DNA from: Brachyspira hyodysenteriae ATCC 27164
Lineage (GTDB): Bacteria; Spirochaetota; Brachyspiria; Brachyspirales; Brachyspiraceae
Assembly: GCF_001676785.2 (NCBI RefSeq)
Contig: NZ_CP016085.2
Span: forward strand, 1 to 32,598
DNA: 32,598 nucleotides
Reading direction: 5' to 3'
The translations under genes were made by a program, and so were the position numbers. The notes under the pieces were generated by a model. The model worked only from the letters and a program-made list of their open reading frames with translations. It did not search any database and was not told where the DNA came from. Below, piece by piece: positions 16,629-30,575 of the stretch; the stretch's first letter is position 1; each line of letters opens with the position of its first letter.

Positions 16629-17915
16629 TTATTTAAAAAATGAAATAAAAAAACTATGCTGCAATTGGGTATTGCAACATAGGTTGTAATTTCTTATATT
16701 TTGTATTATTATAAAGTAATATGTAATCGCTACATATGTAAATATTAGGTCTGGTCTGGTCTGGTCTGGTCTGGTCTGGTCTGGTCTGGTCTGGTCTGGT
16801 CTTACTTTGTGTTTAAATACTATTTTTATACCTAATATGGTCAATATAAAATATTCTTTGTTAGAAGTAAAACTTAATATATCTATATTAAAAATAGTAA
16901 ATAAATTAAACTTTTTAGAATAAAGTTTAATTTTTTCTTCTAATGGTTTTAATTTATTGTAATCTTTTTCTATATCTATGTATTGTTTAACTATAGGTTC
17001 TAAATTAGCAGCCTGATTAACTAAAGTATCTCTATCTATAAAATTATATTCTAATTTTTTTTCTTTAGGCAGTTCTAATGATTCTCCAAATTTATAATCC
17101 CATTCTTGAGGATAAAATTTAGCAGTACCATTTTGATGATAAAAAGTTAGTTCTCCTATTATTGGTTTATCTTTTATGATATAAAAATCTACTCTTACAT
17201 GTATAAAATTTTTAGAGATTTTTTCTGAGATATATAATATTTCATCAATACAATATGGTTTTTCTATTATTGGTTTATAAATAGGATGATATATTTGTAT
17301 ATCTAATTTTTCCCAATTTCTATTGTATACACTTCTTAAATACTTTGCATTTACCCCAAATATTTTTGCATTATGGTCTACAATAATATAATTAGCTATT
17401 CCATTAAAACAAAATACTCTATAATCAACTAAATTAGAATCTATTTGCTCTATATATTTTTCACATGTTATTTTAGGTTTTATATTTTTGTAGCACCATT
17501 CATAATAATAATAATAATGATTAGAAGTAGGTTTCATCCAATATTCTAATTTATTTTTAGTTTCTTCTATATTTAATGTAGATTTATCTTTTACTATAAT
17601 ATTTTGACCGCTACCCCAATTAACTTTTAGTACAAATTGATTAGGTAATGAATCAAAATCTATATCTTCTACTCTATCCCATACTCCTATTAATGGTACT
17701 AAATATTCTTCACCTATTTTTTCTTTTACATAATCTCTAACTAAGTATTTATCAGCACATATAGTCATTAAAGGATCATGATAGTATAGTTTCAGCCATT
17801 GCAGCTTTTCATTAAATGTTTTTGGGTTTTCTAAATTAAGTTCATATCCTAAAGCATTTTTAAATTGCTCTTTAATTATTTTTTCTTTAAATCTGATATT
17901 TTCTTCTGGTGTCAT
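16629..17915 (-). CDS. TupA-like ATP-grasp polysaccharide protein, copy 1, with repeat-encoded tail
   Basis: A 428-residue protein: about 371 residues of TupA-like ATP-grasp core (PF14305-type), then a tail from the AGACC tract. Core motifs are ENPKTFNEKLQWLKLYY, ADKYLVRDYVKE, VLKVNWGSGQNI (ATP-binding), and RVDFYIIKDKPIIGELTFYHQNG (metal and ATP site). TupA-like proteins ligate glutamate or amino acids in teichuronopeptide, or act in capsule assembly, so an amide-forming role is possible. The core ends in LTILGIKIVFKHKV. The tail is RPDQT x3, then a hydrophobic stretch IFTYVAITYYFIII, then a polar end that runs through the terminator hairpin. Other tract lengths give an immediate stop (16745) or a tail ending PIAA at 16654. 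GAGGA lies 9 nt before the ATG. It is a mosaic duplicate of the gene at 17887-19188. Confidence 0.82.
   Translation of the reverse strand: MTPEENIRFKEKIIKEQFKNALGYELNLENPKTFNEKLQWLKLYYHDPLMTICADKYLVRDYVKEKIGEEYLVPLIGVWDRVEDIDFDSLPNQFVLKVNWGSGQNIIVKDKSTLNIEETKNKLEYWMKPTSNHYYYYYEWCYKNIKPKITCEKYIEQIDSNLVDYRVFCFNGIANYIIVDHNAKIFGVNAKYLRSVYNRNWEKLDIQIYHPIYKPIIEKPYCIDEILYISEKISKNFIHVRVDFYIIKDKPIIGELTFYHQNGTAKFYPQEWDYKFGESLELPKEKKLEYNFIDRDTLVNQAANLEPIVKQYIDIEKDYNKLKPLEEKIKLYSKKFNLFTIFNIDILSFTSNKEYFILTILGIKIVFKHKVRPDQTRPDQTRPDQTRPDLIFTYVAITYYFIIIQNIRNYNLCCNTQLQHSFFISFFK
16654..16682 (-). terminator. Intrinsic terminator hairpin after TupA copy 1
   Basis: Reading the minus strand, CTATGTTGCAAT, loop ACCCA, ATTGCAGCATAG makes a 12-bp stem (one G-U pair) followed by seven T. 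It lies 65 nt downstream of the pentanucleotide tract. The present reading frame of TupA copy 1 passes through it and stops at 16629-16631. Another frame stops at its last stem bases (TAG, 16654-16656). The third stops before it (16745-16747). Confidence 0.85.
16748..16802. repeat. Pentanucleotide tract, 11 x GGTCT (sense AGACC)
   Basis: Eleven perfect units inside the 3' end of TupA copy 1, preceded in the sense strand by GTA and followed by TAATATT. In all three frames the tract is stop-free and encodes RPDQT repeats. Copy number mod 3 selects one of three C-termini. The unit count differs from the tract in copy 2 by exactly three, so both copies are now in the same frame. Confidence 0.95.
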
Positions 17916-19188
17916 ATTTTTTATTCCTCAAAATGCAATAAAAAAACCTATGCTGCAATTGGGTATTGCAACATAGGTTGTAATTTCTTATATTTTGTAT
18001 TATTATAAAGTAATATGTAATCGCTACATATGTAAATATTAGGTCTGGTCTGGTCTGGTCTGGTCTGGTCTGGTCTGGTCTTACTTTATGTTTAAATACT
18101 ATTTTTATACCTAATATGGTGAATATAAAATATTCTTTGTTAGAAGTAAAACTTAATATATCTATATTAAAAATAGTAAATAAATTAAACTTTTTAGAAT
18201 AAAGTTTAATTTTTTCCTCTAATGGTTTTAATTTATTGTAATTTTCTTCTAAATCTCTATATTGTTTAACTATAGGTTCTAAATTAGCAGCCTGATTAAT
18301 TAAAGTTTCTCTGTCTATAAAATCATATTCTATTTTTTTATTTTTGGGTATTGTCATTATGTTTCCAAGTTTTATATCCCATTCTTCAGGTTCAAATTTT
18401 GCTATTCCTGCATCAGAATAAAATGTATACTCACTAAAATATATTTTTTCATTTATTTGATAGAAATCAATTCTTATGAAATATGGAAAATCTTTAGATA
18501 TTTTTTTAGCAATATCAATCATCAAATTTAATGCTTCTGGTTTTTTTAAATCATAATCAAAATTTTGATAATTCTGTTTTAAAATTAATTTATTCCAATT
18601 TAAATCATAATAATTAATTTTTTCATCTGGTGTTTTGTCATTAATAATTACCTGAAATAGATATGGTTCACTATTAAAACAAAATGTTTTATATACTGTT
18701 AAGTTATTTAAATTTTCATCCATAACATATTTTTCAGCTAATATTTTAGGTTTTATATTTTTATAAGGCCATTCATATATATAATAATAATGGTTGGAAG
18801 TAGGTTTCATCCAATATTCTAATTTATTTTTAATTTCTTCTATATTTAATGTAGATTTATCTTTTACTATAATATTTTGTCCGCTACCCCAATTAACTTT
18901 CAGTACAAATTGATTGGGTAATGAATCAAAATTAATATCTTCTACTCTATCCCAAACTCCTATTAAAGGTATTAAATATTCTTCTCCGATAGTTTCTTTA
19001 ATATATTCTCTAACAGCATATTTATCAGCACATTTAGTCATTAAAGGATCATGATAATATAGTTTCAGCCATTGTAATTTTTCATTAAATGTTTTTGGAT
19101 TTTCTAAATTAGGTTCATATCCAACATGTGATTTAAATATATTTTTAGTAATAGTTTCCCTGAATTTTATATTTTCTTCTGGTGTCAT
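17887..19188 (-). CDS. TupA-like ATP-grasp polysaccharide protein, copy 2, with repeat-encoded tail
   Basis: A 433-residue paralogue of the gene downstream. Residues 1-140 and about 295-369 are nearly identical to copy 1. Residues 145-290, the part carrying the second half of the ATP-grasp fold, are strongly diverged: RIDFYQINEKIYFSEYTFYSDAG has Ser-Glu in place of the usual Gly-Glu. The N-terminal motif VLKVNWGSGQNI is intact. Eight AGACC units encode RPDQT repeats, then the same hydrophobic IFTYVAITYYFIII tail as copy 1. In the present frame it reads through the terminator and 29 nt into the start of copy 1, ending at 17887. The ATG at 19188 has AAGGA upstream. The different centre suggests a different acceptor or amino donor (inference). 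Confidence 0.82.
   Translation of the reverse strand: MTPEENIKFRETITKNIFKSHVGYEPNLENPKTFNEKLQWLKLYYHDPLMTKCADKYAVREYIKETIGEEYLIPLIGVWDRVEDINFDSLPNQFVLKVNWGSGQNIIVKDKSTLNIEEIKNKLEYWMKPTSNHYYYIYEWPYKNIKPKILAEKYVMDENLNNLTVYKTFCFNSEPYLFQVIINDKTPDEKINYYDLNWNKLILKQNYQNFDYDLKKPEALNLMIDIAKKISKDFPYFIRIDFYQINEKIYFSEYTFYSDAGIAKFEPEEWDIKLGNIMTIPKNKKIEYDFIDRETLINQAANLEPIVKQYRDLEENYNKLKPLEEKIKLYSKKFNLFTIFNIDILSFTSNKEYFIFTILGIKIVFKHKVRPDQTRPDQTRPDLIFTYVAITYYFIIIQNIRNYNLCCNTQLQHRFFYCILRNKKYDTRRKYQI
17945..17979 (-). terminator. Intrinsic terminator hairpin between TupA copies
   Basis: On the minus strand AACCTATGTTGCAAT, loop ACCCA, ATTGCAGCATAGGTT forms a 15-bp stem (one G-U pair) running into a T-rich tail. 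It lies about 30 nt before the copy 1 start codon, in the only gap between the two genes. If it works, copy 1 depends on read-through. The present frame of copy 2 is translated through it. Another frame stops inside its 3' arm (17948-17950) and the third stops before it (18039-18041). Confidence 0.85.
18042..18081. repeat. Pentanucleotide tract, 8 x GGTCT (sense AGACC)
   Basis: Eight perfect units at the 3' end of TupA copy 2, with flanks nearly identical to those of the 11-unit tract in copy 1. The identical flanks and differing unit number are direct evidence that tract length changes while the surrounding sequence stays the same. Confidence 0.95.
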
Positions 19189-25330: not shown

Positions 25331-26530
25331 TTATTCTGTTATAACTTTGATATATTTATCCATGTTATCCATTTTTTCAAGCATTTCATCCATAGATGAA
25401 AATTTTAATATTGCTGTACCTATAGTTCCACCGGAATTATCAAAAGATAAAATCTTATCATTTATTTTAGATAAAATATTATACTCTATAATATTATTTT
25501 CTCTAAGCTTGTCAGATATTTTTACTTCTTTTAATATACCATTATTTTTACTATGTATCATAAAACATGACCAATATCCATTTACTTCTTTCATTTGTAA
25601 ATCATTGCAATTTTCACCTAAAGAAGCCTTTATTGTATATTCTGCTGTATCTACATTTGTAGCATATTTTATAACTTCAGCTATTAAATTCCCTCCATTT
25701 CTAGGACCTAGTTCCATTAGTATAACTTCATCATTTTCATTGACTCTAACATCAAAATTATAAGCTCCAGTTTTCATATTCAATAAATCAAGTAATTTTT
25801 GAGTTTCTTTATCTACCTTATGGCAAGTATATTCACTTATAGGTTTATATGGAAAACTTTCCCCTATTGGAACAATTGAATTTGGATTAAAATGTTCATT
25901 AGCAAAACACCTAAATACTAATTTTCCATTTACAGAAAAACCATCCCCAGCTATTTGATATCCATTTTTTTCTACATATTCTTCAATAATAAATCTATTA
26001 TTACGTGAAAATGATAGTGCATATTTTATTTTTTCTTCTAAGTCTTCTTTATTTACAACTTTAGAAACACCTTTGCTCCCTGCCGAATCTACAGGTTTAA
26101 CCATAACTGGTTTTTTAAATATATCCCAATCATTTATAGCTTTATATATATTAGTAGAAGTATATCCTTTAGCTTTAGGACAATTAAATCCATTATCTAA
26201 TAAAAATTTTCTAAATAAATCTTTATTAGTTAATATCTCTACTGATTTTAGAGGCTGTCCTGGGAGTCCCATTTTTTCAGCTACATAGGAAGCTGTAACA
26301 GCTGCTGTATCAGCTGCATAGCAAACTATACCATCTATTTTTAGTTCTTTAGCTAATTTTAATACCGCTTCTTTATCCAAAGCACTTACTTCATGATATT
26401 CATCAGCAAATTTATGTCCTGGATTATTAGGATTATAATCACATGTTATTGTATAATGACCTAATCTTTTACATGCTTTTATAGAATTAATTTGAAAATG
26501 TGTACCACCTAATAATAATACTTTTTTCAT
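25331..26530 (-). CDS. ATP-grasp ligase (carboxylate-amine/thiol ligase type)
   Basis: A 399-residue ATP-grasp enzyme. The N-terminal pre-ATP-grasp Rossmann-like part (KKVLLLGGTHFQINSIKACKRLGH, residues 1-90) resembles PurK/PurT and carbamoyl-phosphate synthase-like ligases. The central domain has KPVMVKPVDSAGSKGVSKV (ATP lysines and glycine loop) and RFIIEEYVEKNGYQIAGD. The metal-binding end is EVILMELGPRNGGNLIAEVI. It probably activates a carboxylate as acyl-phosphate and forms an amide, perhaps attaching an amino acid or acyl group to an amino sugar. It is unrelated to the TupA-like ATP-grasp proteins. The ATG at 26530 has AAGGA inside the end of the upstream radical SAM frame. It is the last gene of block 2. 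Confidence 0.88.
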   Translation of the reverse strand: MKKVLLLGGTHFQINSIKACKRLGHYTITCDYNPNNPGHKFADEYHEVSALDKEAVLKLAKELKIDGIVCYAADTAAVTASYVAEKMGLPGQPLKSVEILTNKDLFRKFLLDNGFNCPKAKGYTSTNIYKAINDWDIFKKPVMVKPVDSAGSKGVSKVVNKEDLEEKIKYALSFSRNNRFIIEEYVEKNGYQIAGDGFSVNGKLVFRCFANEHFNPNSIVPIGESFPYKPISEYTCHKVDKETQKLLDLLNMKTGAYNFDVRVNENDEVILMELGPRNGGNLIAEVIKYATNVDTAEYTIKASLGENCNDLQMKEVNGYWSCFMIHSKNNGILKEVKISDKLRENNIIEYNILSKINDKILSFDNSGGTIGTAILKFSSMDEMLEKMDNMDKYIKVITE

Positions 26531-26534
26531 AAAA

Positions 26535-27564
26535 TTATCCTTGTTTTATATATTTTTTAAGTAATTCTTTTCTATACTTATCTATATTGTCTATTGCTTC
26601 ATACTTTACAAGCTCACAGTTTTTGCATACTTCATTATTTACATTTGTTCTACCATTTTTCTAAAAACTCTTTTTGAAGGCTATATAAGTTATCTCCATT
26701 CCATACATCTACAATATTATCCGTATTAGCATTTCCTATAATAATTTCTCTTTTCCAATCTGCACAGCACGGAGAGATTTCTCCACTGGAGTGTATAACT
26801 ATATTATAAAAAATAAAAGGACATATATTTTTATCTACTAATTCTTGATTGAATAAACCTCTATTTTTATTTGCTTCTATACTTTTAAATTCAAAATCTG
26901 GCCATATGTTACCAAAAGATTCTATAAAAATTTGATCTGATATATCATAAAAAGTATTATAAAAAATTTCTTTTTCATTTTCTGTTAAATTATCTCCAAA
27001 TATTTTTATATAGACCTTACATTGTTTTCTATTTTTATAGAAGAAAGTTATATCATTAACCAATTTATTAAAATCTACACTAACATTTGATATTTCTTTA
27101 TATTGTTGTTCATTAATACCTTCTATAGAAATACAAATTTGATCTAATCCAGAATTTATAATTTTTAAACTTAGCTCATTTTTTAACAAAAATGCATTAG
27201 TTGTGAATTCTATATGGTTAAATTTTTTTGAATCTTTTGCATACTTTATCATATTAGGTAATTCTGGATTTAATAAAGGTTCTCCATGTTCATATAATCT
27301 AAGAGCTTTTATATCGTTTTTAAATCCAGATATATCATCTACTATTTTTTTGAATAATTCAAAATTCATATTTCCATAATGCCTTCCCCTAGTGTTTTTC
27401 ATAAGCTCCACATCCCCAGTTGGACAGAAGTTACATTTAAAATTACATTTATCTGATGGTTCTATAACTATAACAAATGGAGTATTTAATGGTATTACTG
27501 TTTCTAAAGGAGTTCTATTCTTAGGATCAGTTTCAATTTTTGGCTTTATTTTGTTTTTATTCAT
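26535..27564 (-). pseudogene. Radical SAM/SPASM protein gene with a one-base frameshift near its 3' end
   Basis: The intact frame from ATG 27564 gives 304 residues: CNFKCNFC near residue 40, LYEHGEPLLNPE, FTTNAFLL, and a SPASM-like CPFIFYNIVIHSSGEISPCCADW. It then stops at TAG 26650-26652, in the middle of the SPASM module. Directly downstream, in another frame, is a clear continuation NNEVCKNCELVKYEAIDN...KQG ending at TAA 26535-26537. It supplies the missing CxxC pair and overlaps the ribosome site of the next gene. Adding one A to the A5 run (T5 at 26656-26660 on the plus strand) joins the two as FLEKNGRTNVNNEVCKNC. Either the gene is broken, or it is phase-variable, or this is a sequencing error. 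Its role is probably sugar or substituent modification with the neighbouring ATP-grasp and methyltransferase genes. Confidence 0.85.
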
Positions 27565-27606
27565 GATTTATTTTCCTATATTATTTTTTATAAAATACGA
27601 TAATAA

Positions 27607-28785
27607 TTATGCTGCTATTCTAACAGGTTCTGTTCTGTTCTGTTCTGTTCTGTTCTGTTCTGTTCTGTTCTGTAAGAAAGCTATATCATTTTTTAAATTT
27701 AATTCTTGAACTTGATTCAAAATACCTTCATAATATAAATCTGGCAAAATTAATATTATTGCTTCTTTATCTGTTATATCATCAGGATTAATAATCTTAT
27801 TATTAAAAATAATTTTTCCATGTTTTTTAGATGCTGTATCTACTATATGAACAATATTAAGTTTTTTTAATTTTGGAAGTATAGGTAATATACTTAACCC
27901 TATTCCCCATAATATTACTTTTTTTTGAGATTTTTCTAGTTCATTTATTAATTCATAATTTATATTATTATATGATTCATTTATAAATTTTTTGAAATCA
28001 TATATAATCTTTTGGTTAGAGTCAAAGTCTATCTTTTTTAAGATAACATATATTTCTTTTTCCTTATCAAAATAAGAGTCACCAAATTCCATTATTTCTA
28101 AATTATATTCTAATGCTAGATATGTAAATGCTCTTTTTGAAAAATGGTTAATATGTTCAATAGATAAACAATGTCTTTCTTTATAATAGGGTATATATGG
28201 AGTTTTTATATATACAATTCCATTTTCATTTAAACAATCTATAACATTTTTTATTAAAATTTTTAAATTAAATATATGTTCTATAACATCTGATAATATA
28301 ATCAGATCAAATTTTTTATTAAAAAGATTATTAACATCAAATATATTACCATTTATATAATCTATTTTATCTTTATATCTATTGCTATTGATAGCATTAG
28401 ACACATCTATGCCATGAAGATTATTATAACCTTTATCATATAATTTTGACAGTAAATATCCTGCACCACATGCTATATCCAATATACTAGAATCTTGATT
28501 TATATATTTACTTAATATTTGTACTGTTTTATCTAAACAATTGTAATGTTCAATTATATTAGTTCTTGTATAAGAATAATCATATAGTGAATTATTTTTA
28601 TAGTAATTATCAAATTCTTTTTGAGAAGAAAACATATCATTATATACTAATGAACATTTTTTACATAAAACAAAATCAATATTTTCAGGTAAATCATTAA
28701 TTGTTCTATTATAGATATAATGTAGAGAATGTATTAAATCAACATCTTCATTATGACACAATGGACATTTTCTTTTTGCTATCAT
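27607..28785 (-). CDS. Class I SAM methyltransferase with repeat-encoded tail
   Basis: A 392-residue methyltransferase with an N-terminal zinc-ribbon-like part (CPLCHNE, CKKCSLVYND). The SAM-binding motif is ILDIACGAGYLLSKL near residue 100, with LIILSDVIEHI and VYIKTPYIPYY following. The C-terminal Rossmann-like part VILWGIGLSILPIL and IVHIVDTASKKHGK matches the C-terminal domain of sugar C-methyltransferase relatives. The last 20 residues come from the AGAAC tract at 27627-27671 (RTEQN repeats) and the end VRIAA. The other two frames stop 3-5 residues after the tract. I choose the ATG at 28785, which has AGGAG five nt upstream. A GTG two codons earlier overlaps that site. It ends 42 nt before the radical SAM gene. 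Confidence 0.85.
   Translation of the reverse strand: MIAKRKCPLCHNEDVDLIHSLHYIYNRTINDLPENIDFVLCKKCSLVYNDMFSSQKEFDNYYKNNSLYDYSYTRTNIIEHYNCLDKTVQILSKYINQDSSILDIACGAGYLLSKLYDKGYNNLHGIDVSNAINSNRYKDKIDYINGNIFDVNNLFNKKFDLIILSDVIEHIFNLKILIKNVIDCLNENGIVYIKTPYIPYYKERHCLSIEHINHFSKRAFTYLALEYNLEIMEFGDSYFDKEKEIYVILKKIDFDSNQKIIYDFKKFINESYNNINYELINELEKSQKKVILWGIGLSILPILPKLKKLNIVHIVDTASKKHGKIIFNNKIINPDDITDKEAIILILPDLYYEGILNQVQELNLKNDIAFLQNRTEQNRTEQNRTEPVRIAA
27627..27671. repeat. Pentanucleotide tract, 9 x GTTCT (sense AGAAC)
   Basis: Nine perfect units at the 3' end of the methyltransferase gene. The unit differs by one base from that of the GGTCT tracts. It encodes RTEQN repeats with no stop in any frame. 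The present frame ends RIAA-stop at 27607. The other two frames stop at TAG within 17 nt of the tract. Confidence 0.95.
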
Positions 28786-28793
28786 ATTCACTC

Positions 28794-29813
28794 CTATTTT
28801 ATTAATGAATCTAATATGGAATCCAATTCATTATTAAATCTTCTTCTAATATTTTTTTCAAACATCCAATTGATAGTATCCCTGATTCCTTTTTTGAAAG
28901 AAATACTTTGTTTCCAATTTTTAGCAATACTTTTTATTTTTGAATTATCAAAAATATTACAATATATTCTTTCTGACATTACACCATTGCCGAAACAGGC
29001 AGAATTTTTTAAATTGTCAGATATAGAAATATTAATATTTATCAAATCATTTGCTGGTATGTGTATGAAATCTGTATTTTTTATATTTAAAGCTTCTAGT
29101 AAATATTTACTTATATCAATCCAAGTTAATAATTCATCACCAGATATATTAATTTCTTCTCCAATTAAATCATAATTACATACTAAATAATTAAATGCTT
29201 TTGCAAAATCTTTAGAATGCATCATAGTACATAAACTAGTACCATCACCTGCTATTAAAATAGGCTTACCATCTAAACATCTTTGTGGAACTGTGAAACA
29301 ATTATGACCAACTGAAACAGGTATTATAGTATCATAAGTGTTTGCTGGTCTTACTATTGTTATTGGAAAACCATAATTTTTATATGCCTCTATAAATGTA
29401 TTTTCTGCTTTAATTTTATTATACGCATAAGAATATTTTGAGTTTATATCTTTTGGAGAATTTTCTTTATAAGGTAAATATTTTGTTTCTTTTTTGTATA
29501 CAGAAACAGTACTTATAAATATAAATTGTTTAGTATTATTTTTAAATAAGTTTAAATCATTTTTTGCATGTTCTTCATTGTAACATATAAAATCTATTAC
29601 GCAATCAAAAATTATATTATTAATTGTTTTTTTAGTATTTTCTATATTCCTTATATCTGATTTTAGTTTTATAATATTTGGTTGTATTTCTCTTCTTGTT
29701 AATAAAGTTTCTTCCCTATTTAATATATATACTTCATGACCAGAATTTATAGATTCTTGTACACAATGCCAACTTATATTTCCATTTCCACCTATATATA
29801 AAATTTTTTTCAT
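28794..29813 (-). CDS. SDR-type NAD(P)-dependent sugar epimerase/reductase
   Basis: A 339-residue atypical extended SDR. The nucleotide-binding loop is YIGGNGNISWHCVQE. CVIDFICYNEEHA and FIFISTVSVYKKE form the central sheet, and YAYNKIKAEN carries the YxxxK. IVRPANTYDTIIPVSVGHNCFTVPQR and AGDGTSLCTMMHSKDFAKAF are typical of nucleotide-sugar epimerases and reductases. It may reduce or epimerise the CDP- or other keto-sugar of this block, but I cannot name the substrate. AAGGA lies six nt before the ATG at 29813, directly after the T-run of the terminator hairpin at 29832-29866, so expression requires read-through or an internal promoter. Confidence 0.82.
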   Translation of the reverse strand: MKKILYIGGNGNISWHCVQESINSGHEVYILNREETLLTRREIQPNIIKLKSDIRNIENTKKTINNIIFDCVIDFICYNEEHAKNDLNLFKNNTKQFIFISTVSVYKKETKYLPYKENSPKDINSKYSYAYNKIKAENTFIEAYKNYGFPITIVRPANTYDTIIPVSVGHNCFTVPQRCLDGKPILIAGDGTSLCTMMHSKDFAKAFNYLVCNYDLIGEEINISGDELLTWIDISKYLLEALNIKNTDFIHIPANDLININISISDNLKNSACFGNGVMSERIYCNIFDNSKIKSIAKNWKQSISFKKGIRDTINWMFEKNIRRRFNNELDSILDSLIK

Positions 29814-29831
29814 TGATATTCCTTAAAATAA

Positions 29832-29866
29832 AAGCAGCTGCCTAAACTAAGTTTAGGCAGCTGCTT
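29832..29866 (-). terminator. Intrinsic terminator hairpin between acyltransferase and SDR genes
   Basis: The minus strand has AAGCAGCTGCCTAAACT, one central base, then the exact complement AGTTTAGGCAGCTGCTT: a 17-bp perfect inverted repeat, followed by TTATTTT. It is the most G+C-rich stem in the window. The stop codon of the acyltransferase in its present frame (TAA, 29853-29855) lies inside the 5' arm, so a terminating ribosome would cover and open the stem. Confidence 0.88.
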
Positions 29867-30575
29867 GACTTTTATAAAATAATAAATTAATATATAAATC
29901 TATATTAGAACTGTTCTGTTCTGTTCTGTTCTGTTCTGTTCTGTTCTGTTCTGTTCTGTTCTGTTCTGTTGCAGGTATTCCGTATACTATTTTATTATCA
30001 TTTATATCTTTTGTTACCACAGCACCCGCACCTACTATTACATTTTTTCCTATTTTTATTCTAGGTAAAATTGTAGCACCTGAGCCTATAAAGCTATAAT
30101 CTCCAACTTCTATACAACCACTTAAAGTTGCATTAGGAGCTATATGAACACCTTTTCCTATATTACATTCATGATCTATAGAAGCCGATGTATTAATAAT
30201 TGAATATTTACCTATTGTAACTCTTGGCATAATTGTAGCATTTGGAAGTATTTGAACGCCGTCCATTATACATGATGATTTAGAAATATAAGCATTTTTA
30301 GATATAATACTAATAGACTTAAATCCTAAGTTCAATAACATTTCTGATATACTAACTCTATCTTTTCCGTTAGTTCCACCTATAGCAACTGAAAAGTATT
30401 TATTTTTGAAAGCTAGTAAATTATCTTTATTATAAAATATAGGTATATTATCAAATGGTGATTTTACTTTTTTATTTCTATCAAAAAAAGCAACTATGTT
30501 TAGTCCCATATCAGATATTATTTCTTCTAAGACTATAGCCTGTCCAGTAGCTCCCCATATTATAATATCTTTCAT
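29853..30575 (-). CDS. PglD/NeuD-type sugar acyltransferase with repeat-encoded tail
   Basis: A 240-residue left-handed beta-helix acyltransferase. The N-terminal Rossmann-like part (IIIWGATGQAIVLEEII, AIGGTNGKDR) is typical of PglD/NeuD. Hexapeptide repeats fill residues 90-205: ILPNATIMPRVTIGKYSIIN, ASIDHECNIGKGVHIAPNA, GSGATILPRIKIGKNVIVGAG. The His in SIDHECNIG is the expected catalytic base. It probably transfers an acyl group from a CoA donor to the 4-amino group made by the DegT enzyme encoded 8 nt upstream. The normal C-terminus would follow YGIPA. Here the AGAAC tract adds RTEQN repeats and then a 20-residue end, KSQAAA, whose stop lies in the terminator stem. The other two frames stop 1-5 codons after the tract. 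AAGGA precedes the ATG. Confidence 0.9.
   Translation of the reverse strand: MKDIIIWGATGQAIVLEEIISDMGLNIVAFFDRNKKVKSPFDNIPIFYNKDNLLAFKNKYFSVAIGGTNGKDRVSISEMLLNLGFKSISIISKNAYISKSSCIMDGVQILPNATIMPRVTIGKYSIINTSASIDHECNIGKGVHIAPNATLSGCIEVGDYSFIGSGATILPRIKIGKNVIVGAGAVVTKDINDNKIVYGIPATEQNRTEQNRTEQNRTEQNSSNIDLYINLLFYKSQAAA
29913..29970. repeat. Pentanucleotide tract, 11.6 x GTTCT (sense AGAAC)
   Basis: Eleven full units plus GTT at the 3' end of the acyltransferase gene, beginning right after the codons for YGIPA, where family members normally end. Stop-free in every frame. Frame choice decides whether translation stops just after the tract (TAG or TAA within about 15 nt) or 60 nt further on in the terminator stem. 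Confidence 0.95.

Follow-up and report, generated by a model that had tools for sequence, protein, structure and literature searches.

Repeat number as a putative switch for translation-controlled transcription attenuation at gene 3′ ends in Brachyspira surface-sugar operons

Control of downstream genes by translated repeats that position a stop codon relative to an intrinsic terminator has been described at the pil1 locus of Streptococcus gallolyticus, where the array consists of GCAGA units, the genes behind it encode a surface structure, and translation ends either 39-49 bp ahead of the terminator (OFF) or at or in it (ON) (Danne et al. 2014, PMC3894217). Chloramphenicol and mutations of the start codon and the stem acted there as such a mechanism predicts (PMC3894217). 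For rph-pyrE of E. coli, moving a stop codon relative to the intercistronic attenuator has been reported to control pyrE, according to the account in PMC2784333, which cites Jensen 1993 and Bonekamp 1985 on this point. The locus described here, the 3′ end of a Brachyspira acyltransferase gene, shares with pil1 and pil3 a T-free translated pentanucleotide array, a frame-set stop before or within a terminator, natural variation in unit number, and surface-structure genes behind the terminator; like rph-pyrE, as portrayed in that account, it would couple a frameshift late in the preceding gene to a shifted stop at an intergenic attenuator and to altered downstream expression; and, as in simple-sequence contingency loci, the classical case of phase variation in 5′ coding frames, slipped-strand mispairing would shift the frame at random.

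There are also differences. The acyltransferase locus has neither the dedicated leader peptide nor the promoter of its own that pil1 has, features that other Brachyspira copies do have, and most Brachyspira arrays are located at enzyme-gene 3′ ends within operons rather than in dedicated leaders. The setting is a different phylum with dozens of copies, built on AGACC, AGAAC, AAGAC, AACAC, ACAGG or poly-G repeats, for which function is predicted from sequence. Whereas rph-pyrE, again as that account presents it, involves a single fixed mutation and a UTP-responsive attenuator, the repeat here is reversible, and unlike in contingency loci the repeat-bearing gene stays functional, the predicted target being the genes behind it. 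Translation-set attenuation by repeats is no new principle, as it has already been demonstrated for S. gallolyticus pili; what is new is its apparent occurrence in a second phylum, in many copies per genus, at enzyme 3′ ends in surface-sugar operons and with several repeat types. Literature searches combining Brachyspira with pentanucleotide repeats returned nothing, those combining it with phase variation returned nothing on such repeats, and the literature searched contained no such phase-variation mechanism for Brachyspira surface sugars.

The window, meaning the whole stretch of DNA analysed (32,598 bases), is the complete second contig of a Brachyspira genome; its closest named records are Brachyspira hyodysenteriae plasmids, with 97.5-99.5% identity around the locus, and its genes lie nearly all on the minus strand, many of them in surface-sugar synthesis. 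The acyltransferase gene (29853-30575, minus strand), which carries PglD_N and hexapeptide-repeat domains, ends in an array of 12.0 perfect AGAAC units (29911-29970, minus). In the Pfam assignment its Hexapep region ends at residue 189 and the array begins near residue 204, so that the array lies after the catalytic fold and the enzyme should be complete in every state. Because the coding strand of the array is T-free, it holds no stop codon and all three frames are open across it. Two of them, the short frames, then close at +6 and +11, counted from the end of the array (positions 29905 and 29900, within 29900-29907, minus), while the third, the through frame and the present one, reads on to a TAA at +58 (29853-29855, minus), inside the 5′ arm of an intrinsic-terminator hairpin (29832-29866, minus) that spans +45 to +79. 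The short-frame stops thus precede the present stop by 52 and 47 nt and the stem by 38 and 33 nt. An earlier sequence-only reading had placed the TAA in the 5′ arm and the other stops 40-60 nt upstream of it, as is indeed the case; the stem, which it counted as 17 bp, measures 16 bp, with a 3-nt loop (TTA), and is followed by TTATTTT, stem and T-run together covering 29866-29825. The 96-nt terminator region folds at -35.3 kcal/mol (z = -7.25; none of 200 shuffles as stable), the hairpin by itself at -26.4 kcal/mol, and a terminator scan located few sites of this kind, this hairpin among them. The window gave no Rfam match at the gathering threshold.

Immediately past the terminator, the Shine-Dalgarno sequence AAGGA (29820-29824, minus) adjoins the T-run and serves an SDR gene (NAD-dependent epimerase by Pfam; 28794-29813, minus), which is followed by methyltransferase, radical SAM and ATP-grasp genes (25331-28791, minus; named from the annotation of related plasmids) on what is presumed to be a shared transcript. 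Both the contact between ribosome site and T-run and this gene order agree with the sequence-only reading, which had also named a separate SDR promoter between 29832 and 29813 as one finding that would refute attenuation; the scan detected none there, and the 20-bp gap fits none.

Unit number at the acyltransferase array varies in nature: the window has 12 units and five related plasmids have 13, 11, 7, 7 and 9, with near-identical flanks. All three frames therefore exist among isolates, the 12- and 9-unit arrays being through and those with 13, 7, 7 and 11 units short, which leaves the 9-unit plasmid as the only one of the five relatives in the window's frame. We consider it likely, from this anatomy and from the comparisons below, that repeat number sets a phase-variable attenuator at this locus, one that controls transcription through translation. 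As slipped-strand mispairing adds or removes AGAAC units, the frame in which ribosomes exit the acyltransferase gene would change. If the count is 9 or 12, or any other number divisible by three, the ribosome would enter the stem and stop within its 5′ arm, thereby blocking the hairpin and letting polymerase proceed into the SDR, methyltransferase, radical SAM and ATP-grasp genes (ON); with other numbers it would leave 33-38 nt ahead of the stem, the hairpin would form and most transcripts would terminate (OFF). That termination in Brachyspira depends on frame, and in this direction, is what we infer from the comparative analysis.

The window contains five perfect pentamer arrays, each at a gene 3′ end: AGAAC in the acyltransferase (12 units) and a methyltransferase (9.4 units), and AGACC in two ATP-grasp genes (8 and 11 units) and a fucosyltransferase (10 units). 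No terminator follows the methyltransferase and fucosyltransferase arrays (two of the five), which for that reason are not examples of the putative attenuator. The first ATP-grasp gene, TupA-like, has (AGACC)8 near its 3′ end (18042-18081, minus), with the present frame through, a terminator hairpin behind it (17943-17981, minus) and the next gene 27 nt on, at 17915; the second shows the same arrangement, with (AGACC)11 at its 3′ end (16748-16802, minus) and a hairpin at 16654-16682 (minus). The first array and its homologues have 8, 13, 11, 8, 10 and 8 units in six isolates, and all six are through, which is weak evidence of bias (0.09 by chance) because two of the three frames are through there. 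As a separate observation, the tandem ATP-grasp genes (16629-19188) have arrays and 3′ ends in common, and in BHZ755 and BHZ526 the second copy has only three AGACC units and a different sequence downstream, the BHZ755 gene being annotated as two reading frames; this suggests that recombination has taken place at the arrays.

Across the genus, 20 of 26 Brachyspira genomes contain AGACC arrays and 8 of 26 contain AGAAC arrays, and a terminator lies about 30-62 nt past the array in 39 cases from 16 of the 26 genomes. Each of these 39 has one or two frames that run into the stem and one or more that stop ahead of it, whereas shuffled spacers would be expected to give a through frame in 14.4; the copies being mostly homologous, counts over the 39 are not independent. 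For an estimate free of this relatedness we hand-picked eight unrelated hairpin families, since single-linkage clustering merged nearly all cassettes, and the frame pattern by itself then gives P ~0.01. Short-frame stops lie a median of 44 nt upstream of the stem (range 11-59), close to the 39-49 bp of the pil1 OFF state, and through-frame stops fall inside the stem or just beyond. In 26 of the 39 a co-directional gene with a Shine-Dalgarno sequence starts 15-40 nt past the stem, usually at about 30 nt, against none within 60 nt at 21 background terminators drawn from 200 kb of chromosome in the same genome, where no ORF ends inside a stem either (Fisher 1.6e-7 for the spacing, with the same caveat of homology). 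Because the next gene follows so closely, these terminators are placed mid-operon, without room for a promoter behind them. Matches to the cassette seed are confined to Brachyspira save one, L196 (labelled Gynuella), which lacks an array and was set aside as a chance match.

A neutral origin, in which microsatellites grow where they do no harm, past a catalytic domain and before an ordinary terminator, and spread as gene conversion copies 3′ ends from one glycan gene to another, would be in keeping with arrays that lie beyond the enzyme fold, with the relatedness of the copies, and with present frames that are close to random (21 of 39 through, 18.3 expected, hence no bias). It accounts poorly for the gene spacing, given that ordinary terminators have no closely following gene, and for the presence of both frame types in every copy; moreover, AGACC, AAGAC, AGAGC and poly-G all precede one and the same cassette, and some versions carry their own promoter. 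We therefore regard neutrality as very improbable. The poly-G form was observed at L158 (G003:C130) and L202 (Brachyspira catarrhinii), where poly-G10 replaces the pentamer array before the same tail and terminator.

Leader versions, among them those with a promoter, place the array in a short ORF instead of an enzyme gene, at seven loci: L097, L130 and L098 with AAGAC, L111 with AGACC, and L096 (twice) and L120 with AACAC. At L097 and L130 a TTGACA-16-TATAAT promoter is followed by an array of 17-19 units with an ATG at it, then by the hairpin and, 31 nt later, a gene start, the gene behind the L097 hairpin encoding a family 2 glycosyltransferase (Pfam); promoters of such versions match up to 12 of 12 consensus positions, and L096 shows a Shine-Dalgarno sequence, ATG CTA and then the AACAC array. 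These leader copies (L097, L130, L098, L096 and L111) share the anatomy of pil1 and pil3.

They also bear on an alternative in which the array toggles a tag at the enzyme's C-terminus, a signal for degradation or docking that resembles ssrA, and its overlap with a terminator is incidental. Most gene-end arrays have one frame ending in -(A/V)A, with conserved one-frame tails such as LQPMLQYKIAA, YKSQAAA and IFNNYCKEAA. The tail of the first hairpin class (class I) approximates YNNSKYKKLQPMLQYKIAA, and because its end resembles the tmRNA tag of this genome, ADEYALAA, which is also the Brachyspira tag, a C-terminal tag is a real rival. Some copies (L124, L129 and L117) keep the tail frame although the hairpin has decayed, which also counts against attenuation, and the AGAGC class and the window's methyltransferase end in EAA, EVA or IAA without any terminator. 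In L097, L130 and L111, however, the hairpin is kept while stops close the class I peptide frame and another frame crosses the same hairpin; as such leader copies have no enzyme to tag and no open peptide frame, translation into the hairpin is the one feature left there that can have been conserved.

Codon-level comparison points the same way. Where class I tails lie upstream of the stem and are free of the hairpin, changes in the peptide frame pile up at the first position of codons, with a synonymous fraction of 0.07 where permuted columns give 0.22; with a fraction below the permuted null, the tail peptide shows no purifying selection. The other class I through frame shows a weak synonymous excess, at about 0.40, a level reached by 16 of 400 permutations, and the IAA that closes class I tails is imposed by the hairpin's 3′ arm. 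A conserved C-terminal degron or tag switch, considered for the -AA ends and their likeness to ADEYALAA, was accordingly rejected, since the peptide does not look conserved as a protein, and tagging in general appears to us unlikely. The sequence-only reading had suggested that repeat number may affect both the downstream genes and the enzyme's tail; the comparisons support the former, while the change of tail is probably a by-product of the switch.

The hairpin, by comparison, is maintained. In class I, 91.4% of stem cells are paired and double changes occur at 7 of 15 pairs (none of 500 shuffles); in the window's own class (class II), one pair appears as C-G, T-A or A-T among genomes with the stop codon kept, TAA in five of six aligned relatives and TAG in the sixth. 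This compensatory change, which conserves hairpin and T-run, weighs against an explanation by frame-dependent polarity, in which the hairpin is not the sensor but just a leaky terminator or 3′ end stabiliser, and either an early stop leaves RNA open to attack by Rho or nucleases, or ribosomes that reach the intergenic region aid initiation at the next gene. Through-frame ribosomes do end closer to the next start, and in an ATP-grasp copy the through frame even ends beyond the next ATG (17887 vs 17915). Yet through-stops are placed in the stem or just past it, and the frames differ by only about 50 nt in the length of the untranslated gap, a short distance for Rho; we judge polarity decidedly unlikely. 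Attenuation set by repeat number is the reading that the recurrence at 39 loci, the tight gene spacing, the covariation, the leader versions and the S. gallolyticus precedent jointly favour.

Repeats also occur in other arrangements. At L095 (3172-4883, minus; G002:C5), a gene for an N6/N4 DNA methylase that also has an Mrr-like nuclease domain carries (AGACC)11.8, which begins 7 nt past the A of its start ATG; the gene looks OFF because the present-frame ORF ends after 26 codons, making it a candidate phase-variable methylase. At L089, L091, L092, L093, L101, L104, L105 and L127, AGAAC arrays follow short 5′ ORFs without a terminator, and in several of these loci one frame runs 190-250 nt to the next gene start (L104: stop +199, ATG +195; L101: stop +248, ATG +247), which suggests a separate design of repeat-set translational coupling at L101, L104 and their like. 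Arrays without a GC-rich terminator at 27607-27673 of the window and at L097, L099 and L122 (AGAGC class) have tails ending in IAA, EAA or EVA, and an inverted repeat made up of A and T only surrounds ATCGTA or TTCGTA and adjoins the Shine-Dalgarno sequence; arrays of this form are possibly a translational version.

For the genus as a whole, we lean towards the view that Brachyspira carries a combinatorial switchboard, in which dozens of independent repeat-set attenuators in surface-glycan operons, mostly on the 3′ ends of working enzyme genes, would each let a gene's tail decide expression of the next pathway segment, the unit being a portable cassette of slippery repeat, one open frame, terminator and next gene. 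If this is true, the repeat counts of a few arrays, which are readable from any genome, would foretell which portions of the surface-sugar operons are switched on, a mechanism so far known from a single streptococcal species would become a design that recurs in an unrelated phylum, and the arrays would offer a test of transcription-translation coupling in spirochaetes.
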